Below, piece by piece: positions 51,736-55,148 of a stretch of DNA of 64,000 bases. The translations under genes were made by a program, and so were the position numbers. The notes under the pieces are model-generated. The model was not told where the DNA came from, made no database searches, and worked only from the letters and a program-made list of their open reading frames with translations. This stretch comes from Lactococcus termiticola (GTDB lineage Bacteria; Bacillota; Bacilli; Lactobacillales; Streptococcaceae): contig NZ_BFFO01000006.1 in the NCBI RefSeq assembly GCF_003116835.1, forward strand, positions 1-64,000. Direction: 5' to 3'. The stretch's first letter is position 1. The number at the start of each line of letters is the position of its first letter.

Positions 51736-52632
51736 TTAGGCCTTGTTAGCTGAACCGAAAACGTCGATACGTTCTTCAACTGATTCAGTGATGGCTGCGA
51801 AACCAGGAGCCAAGAATTTACGTGGGTCGAAGAGTTTCTTCTTCATGTATTCAGCTTCGTTAGCGTCAAATTCGTTGACGAATTTACGAGTTGCTGCTGC
51901 GAATGCAAGTTGGCATTCAGTGTTAACATTAACTTTAGCAACACCGTTCTTGATTGCTTCGCGGATTTGGTCATCAGGAATACCTGAACCACCGTGGAGA
52001 ACGATTGGCACTTTACGGCCAACTTGTTCAACCAAAGCGTTGTTCAATTTTTCAAGGTGATCGATGTGGAGACCTTTCCAGTTTTCTGGGTAAGGACCGT
52101 GGATGTTACCGATACCAGCTGCCAAGAAGTCAACGCCAAGTTTAGCCATTGCTACAGCGTCGTCGATAGGAGCAAGTTCGCCTTCACCGATGATACCGTC
52201 TTCTTCACCACCGATAGAACCAACTTCACATTCTACAGAGATGCCTTTAGCGTGAGCCAAAGCGATGATTTCTTCAGCTTGCTTCAAGTTTTCTTCGATT
52301 GGCAGGTGTGAGCCGTCGAACATTACTGAAGTGTAGCCAATTTCGATACATTCTTTAGCATCGTCAAAGTGACCGTGGTCAAGGTGGATTGCAACTGGTA
52401 CAGTGATACCCATTGATTCAACAAGTGTTTCAATGAGGACTTTACACATCTTGTAGCCACCCATGTATTTAGCAGCACCCATAGAAGTTTGGATCAAGAC
52501 TGGAGTCTTTTTAGCTTCTGCGGCACGCAAGATAGCTTGAGTCCACTCAAGGTTGTTGGTGTTGAAACCACCGATAGCATAGCCGTTATCGCGGGCTGCT
52601 TGTACGAATTTTTCTGCTGAAACGATTCCCAT
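51736..52632 (-). CDS. fba: Fructose-bisphosphate aldolase, class II
   Basis: A 298-residue zinc enzyme of glycolysis. IHLDHGH near residue 83, VECEVGSIGGEED near 135, GNIHGPYPE near 178, LHGGSGIPD near 212 and VNVNTECQLA near 233 form the active site. Codon choice is biased and A+T-richer than the surroundings, as expected for a very abundant protein. CGGAGGAA precedes the ATG. The paralog at 12506 sits in the inositol cluster. Confidence 0.96.
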   Translation of the reverse strand: MGIVSAEKFVQAARDNGYAIGGFNTNNLEWTQAILRAAEAKKTPVLIQTSMGAAKYMGGYKMCKVLIETLVESMGITVPVAIHLDHGHFDDAKECIEIGYTSVMFDGSHLPIEENLKQAEEIIALAHAKGISVECEVGSIGGEEDGIIGEGELAPIDDAVAMAKLGVDFLAAGIGNIHGPYPENWKGLHIDHLEKLNNALVEQVGRKVPIVLHGGSGIPDDQIREAIKNGVAKVNVNTECQLAFAAATRKFVNEFDANEAEYMKKKLFDPRKFLAPGFAAITESVEERIDVFGSANKA

Positions 52633-52693: not shown

Positions 52694-52743
52694 TTTTGTG
52701 AAATCTTTTGCTAGTTAGAGTTAACTTTATCTCAGTTTGGTTT

Positions 52744-53244
52744 GGGAATGTTTCTAATAATGGGTGCTCGGGGAGCTAGCTTCGACTATTTCTAAGCCTT
52801 GCTTAGCCAACAACCTCACATCTTCGATATGAGATCAGGCTGTCCCGGAAGTCTAAGTGCTAAAGCACTAAGACCCTCGGGCAGTCTCGCTGAAGCGAGC
52901 CGTCATGCCACAAAGAAATAGTACTTGCGGATCTCCCCTGTGCGGAAGACTAAGTAGCAAAGCTACTTGTCTTCCCATTATTAGAAAATCCCCTGGAATT
53001 GGCCTTCGGCCGTTTGGCTTCGCCAAACCCGCAAAGCGGTCCGCCTACGGCGGGAGCGGAGCTCTAATCCAAGGGGATTTTCTAGTAGTGGGATTATGAG
53101 AAAGCTTTGCTTTCCCATAATCCGCGGAGCGGAAATCCGCAAGTAGCGTTGCTTTGCCATGCGACGGCTCCCGTAGGGAGACTAAGCAGAGCTTAGCAAC
53201 ACTCGAAGCTAGTTCCGCGAGCACCCACTACTAGAAACATCCCC
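52744..53244. repeat. Large nested palindrome with about ten hairpins
   Basis: Outer arms of 42 bases (52744-52785 with 53203-53244) pair at 37 positions. Inside are hairpins such as CTAAGC / GCTTAG, AAGTGC / GCACTT, CTCGCT / AGCGAG, AAGTAGC / GCTACTT, GGCC-TTC-GGCC, TTTGGC / GCCAAA, CCGCC / GGCGG and CTAAGC / GCTTAG again. A second long stem (52974-52993 with 53073-53092) pairs at all 20 positions counting two G-U. Each half also has its own perfect 14-bp inverted repeat: TTTCTAATAATGGG at 52751 and 52974, and TTTCTAGTAGTGGG at 53079 and 53224. It fills the 650-base gap between fba and mnmG; no convincing protein frame is present. Confidence 0.85.
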
Positions 53245-53282
53245 ACTCCCGAAGGGAAAGGACGGCTGGCAAGCCAAAAATC

Positions 53283-55148
53283 CTATTTTTGAAGATACAC
53301 CATTAAAATCGATATGTCCGCTGGATTCACACCAGAAATCCGACTGGCTTGTCCAAGCGTTTCTGGGTTAATCTTCTTGAATTTTTGTCTTGCTTCTGTC
53401 GCGATGCTATCAATCGCATCCCAATCGATATTCTTAGGAATCCGTTTTTCTTCTAGGCGGTGCATTTTTTCAACTTGTTCGAGGGCTTTTTTGATATAGC
53501 CTTCATAAATTGTTTCCGTCTCAATCAGCTCAATGACTGTTCTATCCAGCGCTTCTTCTGGTGCTCCGACAAAGTCAAGGACATCTTTATAAGTTACTTC
53601 TGGACGTTTCAAGAAATCCGCTCCTGAAACTGCGTCTTTAATTGGTCCAAATCCCATTTTACCGAGTTTTTCTTGTGTTTCTGGGAAGGGTTTGAGTTTT
53701 TCTTTGTTCAAACGTGCCATTTCTTTATCAAAACTGGCTTTTTTCGCTTCAAAGGCTGTCCAACGTTCTTCATCAACCAAGCCAACTTCGTGACCAATTG
53801 CTGTCAAACGCATATCCGCATTATCATGACGGAGAATCAAACGGTATTCTGCACGACTTGTCAAAAGGCGATAAGGTTCCAAAGTCCCTTTCGTTACCAA
53901 ATCATCAATCATCACACCGATATAAGCATCTGAGCGTTTCAAGATGAGTTCTGGCTTCCCTTGAACCTTGAGGCTGGCATTAATCCCTGCGACCAAACCT
54001 TGCCCTGCTGCTTCTTCATAACCTGATGTACCGTTGGTTTGACCTGCTGTGAAGAGTCCAGAAATTTTCTTTGTTTCCAATGTCGGCCGGAGCTGATGGG
54101 GCATGACCATGTCGTATTCGATGGCATAGCCAGGTCGCATCATCTCTGCATTTTCCAAACCTGGAATCGAGCGAAGGAGGTCAAATTGAACGTCTTCTGG
54201 CAGGCTAGTTGAAAGACCTTGGACGTAGACCTCATCAGTATTTCGCCCTTCAGGCTCTAAGAAGAGCTGGTGGCGGGGCTTGTCAGCAAAACGGACAACC
54301 TTGTCTTCAATAGAAGGACAGTAACGAGGGCCGACACCTTTAACAATCCCTGAAAACATCGGAGCCCGGTGCAGGTTCTTATTGATGATGTCATGGCTGG
54401 TCGTGCTGGTATAGGTCAGCCAGCAGGGCACCTGGTCTTTGAGGTAGTCTTCATCCTTGCTCAAGAAGCTAAAATGATTTGGAGCCTCGTCGCCCGGCTG
54501 GATTTCAGTTGCTTCATAGTTAATCGAAGAACCCAAAATCCGAGGCGGTGTCCCCGTCTTAAAACGGCCAATCTCAAAGCCGAGATTTCGCAGATTATCA
54601 GCTAGGCCGACAGAGGCCAGCGAATTATTTGGCCCTGAGGAATACTTGAGCTCGCCGATGATAATCTCGCCACGCAGGGCTGTCCCGGTCGTGATGACCA
54701 CGGCCTTGGCCCCGTATTCTGTCCCGGTCGCTGTGCGAACGCCGACGACCCGGTCATCCTCGACCAAGAGCTCTTCGACCATGCCCTGGCGGAGGGTCAG
54801 ATTTTCCTGGCTTTCTACGGTCTCCTTCATGGTCTTGGCGTAAAGCTCCTTGTCTGCCTGGGCACGCAGGGCACGGACAGCAGGGCCCTTTCCGGTATTG
54901 AGCATCTTCATCTGGATGTAGGTCTTGTCGATATTACGGCCCATCTCGCCACCCAGGGCGTCAATTTCACGGACGACAATCCCCTTGGCAGAGCCCCCGA
55001 TAGAAGGGTTACAAGGCATAAAGGCCAACATATCCAGATTGATGGTAATCAAAAGCGTGCTGGTCCCCATACGGGCTGAGGCCAGGGCCGCCTCGACACC
55101 AGCATGTCCTGCCCCGACGATAATGACATCATAATTTTCTTGTTTCAT
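53283..55148 (-). CDS. mnmG: tRNA uridine 5-carboxymethylaminomethyl modification enzyme MnmG
   Basis: A 621-residue FAD protein that with MnmE modifies U34 of tRNAs. The FAD-binding [17 protein letters not shown] is at residues 12-28, followed by [10 protein letters not shown] near 47, GTPPRI near 200 and [19 protein letters not shown] near 375. The helical C-terminal domain ends ISRVSG-like ([19 protein letters not shown]). GGAGC lies before the ATG. The C-terminal half of the gene is clearly poorer in G+C than the N-terminal half, see findings. mnmE is not in view. Confidence 0.96.

Follow-up and report, generated by a model that had tools for sequence, protein, structure and literature searches.

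Several kinds of bacterial sequence combine repetition or large size with extensive base pairing. The RNAs GOLLD, ROOL and OLE are large and ornate, hundreds of bases long with many hairpins, and double compensatory changes are usually read as proof of a functional RNA; where selection acts on an RNA structure, G-U is much better tolerated than A-C. At the level of DNA, ERIC and NEMIS share the traits of MITEs, being short, non-coding, bounded by terminal inverted repeats, multicopy and mostly intergenic. The BOX elements of Streptococcus pneumoniae and S. suis are composite modular interspersed repeats (PMC3049150), and REP sequences are reported to be 20-40 bp long (PMC3733652). The window, a stretch of 64,000 nucleotides of Lactococcus termiticola DNA, holds between fba and mnmG a nested palindrome of about 500 nucleotides, which the original prediction took to be either a very large structured RNA or a DNA-level hairpin element.

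Architecture of the element

The features of the locus are listed below; the limits of the element core rest on the sequence, a repeat finder and 10 further full copies in the genome.

51736-52632, minus strand: fba, class II fructose-bisphosphate aldolase (PF01116, NF005590)
52743-53245: element core, made up of unit A (minus), hairpin-chain spacer and unit B (plus)
52751-52987, minus strand: unit A (AATAAT type), with P1 TTTCTAATAATGGG/CCCATTATTAGAAA, P2 side hairpin and P3-P6 long arm
52807-52884: optional module M, two hairpins and a stem (from alignment A1, with L023 by eye)
52988-53078: central spacer, arms AATCCCC/GGGGATT around five hairpins with 3-nt loops
53001-53011, 53012-53028, 53029-53039, 53041-53053 and 53054-53064: spacer hairpins
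53079-53237, plus strand: unit B (AGTAGT type), a three-way-junction hairpin without interruption
53246-53276: right outer end hairpins, CCC GAA GGG at 53248-53256 and GGCT/AGCC at 53264-53275
53283-55148, minus strand: mnmG (TIGR00136)

The element lies ~110 bp before the fba start codon and ~40 bp past the mnmG stop codon; the closest named MnmG proteins found, those of Lactococcus garvieae and L. petauri, are 86% identical. The outer arms of 42 bases pair at exactly the 37 positions predicted (52744-52785 with 53203-53244), and the five misfits read on the plus strand as three A-C, one G-G and one G-T. According to the repeat finder the arms run on, to 52743-52806 and 53182-53245, and over that length they are 84% complementary. 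The inner stem is likewise present, with arms at 52973-53000 and 53066-53093 that are 86% complementary, as is the perfect 14-bp inverted repeat described for each half: TTTCTAATAATGGG on the left (52751-52764 and 52974-52987) and TTTCTAGTAGTGGG on the right (53079-53092 and 53224-53237). When both strands were folded, as had been suggested, the palindrome proved far more stable than its shuffles on either one, with z of -17.0 for plus-strand RNA, -21.3 for minus-strand RNA and -16.8 for DNA; in each of these three series 0 of 100 shuffles were as stable. The element contains a single open reading frame of at least 60 aa, which encodes 64 aa.

The building block of the structure is a unit of ~160 nt, a Y-shaped hairpin in which a closing stem of 14 bp carries a side hairpin and a long arm. 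Alignment of 30 units (A1; 29 from the L. termiticola genome, G000, and one from G013) shows a single fold with closing stem P1 (TTTCTARTARTGGG), side hairpin P2 and an arm carrying P3, P4-P5 and P6, stems that are set apart by mismatches and internal loops. In the window copy two such units face each other across a row of five small hairpins, and an additional module of 78 nt interrupts the left one; the two units are matched by our covariance model R1 at L001:1552-1788 (minus, E 4.2e-32) and L001:1880-2038 (plus). Each full copy in the genome joins one AATAAT-type to one AGTAGT-type unit (11/11), and in 10 of the 11 the P1 arms of each unit share the same core; the exception is c08, in whose G-type unit an AGTAGT arm faces an AGTAAT arm. 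The suggestion that the inner part is an inverted copy is borne out: the halves are homologous units in inverse orientation, with 69-78% identity within a full copy. Units of the same type at different loci average 87-88% identity and are thus closer to each other than the pair within a copy, which implies that the conserved fold is that of each half. As judged from these sequences, the large outer palindrome arises mostly as a side effect of the head-to-head placement of two homologous units.

Four recombinant single units (L017, L018, L020 and L025) mix stems of both types and keep 50 to 53 of 53 pairs Watson-Crick. A single-base bulge in the outer 3' arm is present in all 30 units of A1; in 17 other units it fits better in six and worse in ten, with one tie, and it is therefore not universal.

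The 78-nt module M occupies one fixed position in six units of the L. termiticola genome (five in A1, and L023 by eye). A similar sequence of 77 nt is found as a stand-alone repeat in G005, G016, G008 and G012, while G007 contains part of it, and since it repeats independently in other genomes the window element is composite. For 13 units from outside G000, pairing between the two flanks of a unit is stronger than pairing between swapped flanks (-17.5 versus -10.6). For 13 copies of M the corresponding means are -7.4 kcal/mol with their own and -8.4 kcal/mol with swapped flanks, and the notion that M always lands in hairpin loops was dropped as a rule; L040, L045, L035 and L059 are single cases that look like M within a hairpin loop. 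Two observations concern this module elsewhere. At L045:1498-1574 (G012) the 77-nt module lies in frame and free of stops inside an Rlm-type rRNA methyltransferase gene, whose 427 codons are open across the module and whose family match falls below the NCBIfam cut-off; this arrangement is reminiscent of the Rickettsia palindromic elements. On C1 of G005 (for example L032, L042 and L049) the module lies within a larger multi-hairpin repeat, which gave 129 candidates at first look, 11 of them scored.

Copies, insertion sites and relatives

The proposal that other copies should be sought proved fruitful, and the related copies found in the genome support the DNA-level alternative of the original prediction; diverged units occur in relatives. 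The palindrome matches its own genome (1.73 Mb, 22 contigs) at 68 places by blastn, which with an end-pattern search make up 20 loci and two fragments (C1:222678 and C3:208118); five weak extra matches to the P1-end pattern, with 2-3 mismatches, lie elsewhere and stand outside this count. The head-to-head pair is the commoner form in this genome, with 11 full pairs against 8 single units, and the remaining locus is a rearranged pair (C4:232-540); single units are also present in other genomes. The 10 other full copies are scattered over unrelated loci, with 73-92% identity to the window copy over the stretch matched by blastn.

A full copy runs from an end hairpin through a CCC-TTC-GGG hairpin, a unit, the spacer chain and a second, inverted unit to mirror-image ends. 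The end hairpin has the form arm, TGC, arm, and its two arms vary together between copies. Intact copies carry end hairpins on both sides; by eye, those of the left side are missing from the window copy. The outer-end pattern has 7 matches in the genome, all at known copies. The spacer hairpin chain is inverted in c09 and c10, and c06 and c08 have other variants of it (by eye). Other repeats were also seen near the copies: a short inverted repeat containing ATCGTGTGGGACATTTCCCACACGAT occurs in the flank of L002, where it lies beside GGCTCTTTGTCAAAT, and in L030:1-230, and we take it to resemble an ISL3-type MITE; another imperfect palindromic repeat, of the AAGCTTTTGAGACAGCAATGCG ... GCATTGAGGCCCAAAAGCTT type, is found in or beside copies at the flank of L006 and at L023, L030 and L141.

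The covariance model R1 has 159 positions and was built from 25 units (those of alignment A2), with the five M-bearing units left out. Run against 245 sampled genomes of the bacterial family, it detects units in 9, which belong to 2 of 10 genera: L. termiticola itself, seven others of its genus (G005, G007, G008, G013, G014, G016 and G017) and, from another genus, G027, which has at least 10 matches. The best 12 candidates per genome were scored in this search, and copy numbers from it are lower bounds. Across 295 genomes of the order, with the best 10 candidates of each, R1 matched only the L. termiticola genome (1/295); the other positive genomes are presumably not among these 295. Units outside this genome have a mean pairwise identity of 57% (17 units). 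In G016 two units stand head to head across a hairpin spacer, and their P1 stems differ between the units and match within each. A perfect inverted repeat of >20 bp surrounds a further unit, L205 in G027, which precedes a gene identified by eye as coding for a der-like GTPase. Distant blastn searches of phage and plasmid collections gave no match to the element, and two unit patterns had 0 matches in viral contigs.

The gap between atpG and atpD holds a unit in G013, one of the 18 genomes of the genus, and none was seen in the 17 others, L. termiticola included, on visual inspection of the 260 nt that precede the atpD match. One copy, c08, sits between narG and narH, the narG piece being a fragment below the full-length cut-off. 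Two sites are occupied in more than one species. The first, in G005 and G016, precedes a gene resembling that of mannosylglycerate hydrolase; the second precedes a ccrZ-like gene and is filled in G014 and G017, while G002 has a decayed copy there. Neither gene match reaches its NCBIfam cut-off, and for G005, G014 and G002 the gene was assigned by eye. These shared sites fit old insertions that were inherited and then decayed. Visual inspection of the sequence on either side of the full copies revealed no recognisable target-site duplication. As to the site of the window copy, fba was not found near mnmG in the 17 loci checked among 80 loci of relatives, and three of the 17 end within 266 nt past mnmG. 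These three are L061, L062 and L063 (L. garvieae, L. petauri and L. ileimucosae), whose contigs end 85-266 nt past the gene; in L062 the sequence past mnmG resembles an rRNA operon leader (by eye), a likely cause of the contig break.

A search of the L. termiticola genome for a transposase with matching ends, covering Y1_Tnp, RVT_1 and IS110 Transposase_20, found none: there are 0 matches to the Y1-type transposase (PF01797), 0 to the reverse transcriptase (PF00078), and IS110 Transposase_20 is absent. Within the genus, Y1_Tnp occurs in 2 of 18 genomes, in one case interrupted by stops and in the other partial, and IS110 in 7 of 18, including 3 of the 8 that bear units; co-occurrence of either enzyme as mobiliser does not fit the distribution of units and both candidates were rejected.

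We consider it probable that the window palindrome belongs to a lactococcal family of interspersed repeats, mobile DNA that is non-coding and non-autonomous and behaves like a MITE or BOX element. Copies might instead be cis-acting elements that the host keeps at the ends of genes, as bidirectional terminators, stabilisers of mRNA 3' ends or attenuators. The position of the window copy between mnmG and fba would suit this role, as would the sites common to G005 and G016 and to G014 and G017, and a terminator whose T-run points towards the element adjoins the outer end at 9 of the 20 loci. This is a raw count: seven (c04, c09, c10, c11, h17, h18 and h23) were found by a script that counted terminators up to 21 nt from the element edge as we set it, and c03 and c05 by reading the sequence. 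The units themselves, however, end without a T-run of their own, and some of them sit between genes of an operon or directly ahead of a ribosome-binding site, places in which strong termination would be harmful. The sites identified differ, moreover, between G013 (atpG-atpD), the two shared sites and the sites of G000, and the copy in G002 is decaying. We regard a role of this kind as unlikely.

Covariation of the unit fold

The pairing of the unit is maintained by extensive covariation. Among the 25 units, 28 of 53 pairs show changes at both positions, and this rises to 43 of 53 in 33 units from nine genomes (alignment A4 takes in 27 of 33 sources, at E up to 1e-12). In these 33 units 93.8% of 1726 cells are paired, versus 70.8% when shuffled and at most 42.9% with the partners slid; the alignment was fitted to the model and so leans towards the fold, and its related units are not independent. 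The mispairs are distributed evenly between the two types. The 30 units of A1 have 1715 Watson-Crick, 15 G-T and 19 A-C among 1770 cells, and 17 units from outside G000 have 772 Watson-Crick, 34 G-T and 35 A-C, a count that drew on 32 of 54 R1 matches and excluded opposite-strand and short matches as well as the weaker or broken L023, L030, L141, L203, L218 and L220. By comparison, tRNAs in the same loci, only four in number, have 8 G-T and 0 A-C. The missing asymmetry between G-T and A-C implies that the fold matters, or is maintained, as DNA. The preference of G-U pairs for particular strands, on which the original prediction commented, holds for the window copy and fails as a general rule: the equivalent of the window plus strand folds better in 8 of 11 full copies and the other strand in 3 of 11, and across units G-T is about as frequent as A-C.

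These data bear directly on the proposal of a large structured non-coding RNA, like GOLLD or ROOL or of a new class, encoded at many loci. Its folding energy is extreme and its covariation strong, some copies lie in gaps of probable transcription units (narG-narH and atpG-atpD), and the same strand folds better in most full copies. The window copy, however, is one of the three in which the other strand does so; the inverted arrangement of the pair gives each strand one unit per sense; and G-T is no commoner than A-C. The comparison with GOLLD, ROOL and other large RNA models in Rfam, called for in the original prediction, returned no match to the element at the gathering score, and with E up to 1 gave only one, of 17 bits (E 0.24, against a gathering score of 40), which is not credible. 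The large-RNA reading is not supported by these results, and we judge it improbable.

Homogenisation of arms and inversion of spacers are among the described products of polymerase template switching (PMC8794818; PMC8604942), and in L025 and the minus unit of L005 one arm has been replaced by the reverse complement of the other. That the palindrome was built in place by this process, without transposition, is very improbable: its matched arms, inverted spacers and reverse-complement replacements are typical products of it (PMC8794818; PMC8604942), yet 10 other full copies share its sequence at unrelated loci (73-92%) and none of the 17 other genomes of the genus has the atpG-atpD unit. Conservation is 0.73 at unpaired and 0.675 at paired positions (permutation p 0.066); given this value, and the ability of template switching to match arms without selection, a function of the fold is plausible, not proven.

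For the mobile repeat that we favour, the preferred mechanism is movement by way of folded DNA and an enzyme supplied in trans. Single-stranded or supercoiled DNA would extrude the unit as a hairpin, and the enzyme would recognise the folded unit in copying the element to a new site. Within the hairpin, polymerase template switching could keep the arms matched, flip the spacer and swap segments of arms, and insertions may often be kept just past terminators and in operon gaps, where they would do little harm. More tentatively, Lactococcus may have an undescribed recombination system that recognises hairpins, takes the folded unit as its substrate and moves Y-shaped DNA hairpins, singly or in pairs, often to the ends of terminators, with the covariation recording selection on single-stranded DNA structure and not on RNA; we see this as a possibility with the balance against it. 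If an enzyme does recognise the folded unit, a food-related genus would have a mobility system of a new kind, based on hairpins. The 43 of 53 covarying pairs without wobble asymmetry also make the repeat a clean test case for DNA-level structure or upkeep by template switching, and RNA-discovery pipelines could mistake such a repeat for a large RNA.

Comparison with known systems

The element resembles GOLLD, ROOL and OLE in extending over hundreds of bases with many hairpins, and differs from them in having no credible counterpart in Rfam and a pattern of variation of the DNA type, not the RNA type. It is set apart from retroelements of the group II intron type by a host genome in which no reverse transcriptase match was found. 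Inverted pairs of hairpin units between genes recall the BIMEs formed by REP sequences and associated with RAYT transposases (Y1/HUH); the units are, however, four to eight times longer than REPs, and a Y1-type enzyme had no match in G000.

The element also resembles MITEs (PMC10969869): it is short, non-coding, multicopy and mostly intergenic, with terminal inverted repeats in the 14-bp perfect unit ends of the window copy and in the outer arms, and it lacks a transposase gene while occurring in many copies (20 loci and two fragments, longest reading frame 64 aa). It departs from MITEs in that the whole unit, and not just its ends, is a conserved covarying fold; inspection by eye found no target duplication, and a search of three enzyme families found no cognate IS.

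With BOX elements it shares a composite, modular and non-coding make-up, the same bacterial family, a frequent position at gene ends and the want of a proven transposase, and the insertion of repeats into one another is a further point of likeness (PMC10969869). Its layout sets it apart, with a three-way-junction unit in head-to-head pairs in place of boxA-boxBn-boxC, a comparison with boxA, boxB and boxC made by description; R1 units occur in the 2 of 10 genera (9/245 genomes) given above. Our literature search, covering open-licence PMC papers, found no description of this repeat family. Taken together, the element is best filed as a real and unusual structure among the small interspersed palindromic repeats, belonging to a family that, as far as found, had not previously been described.
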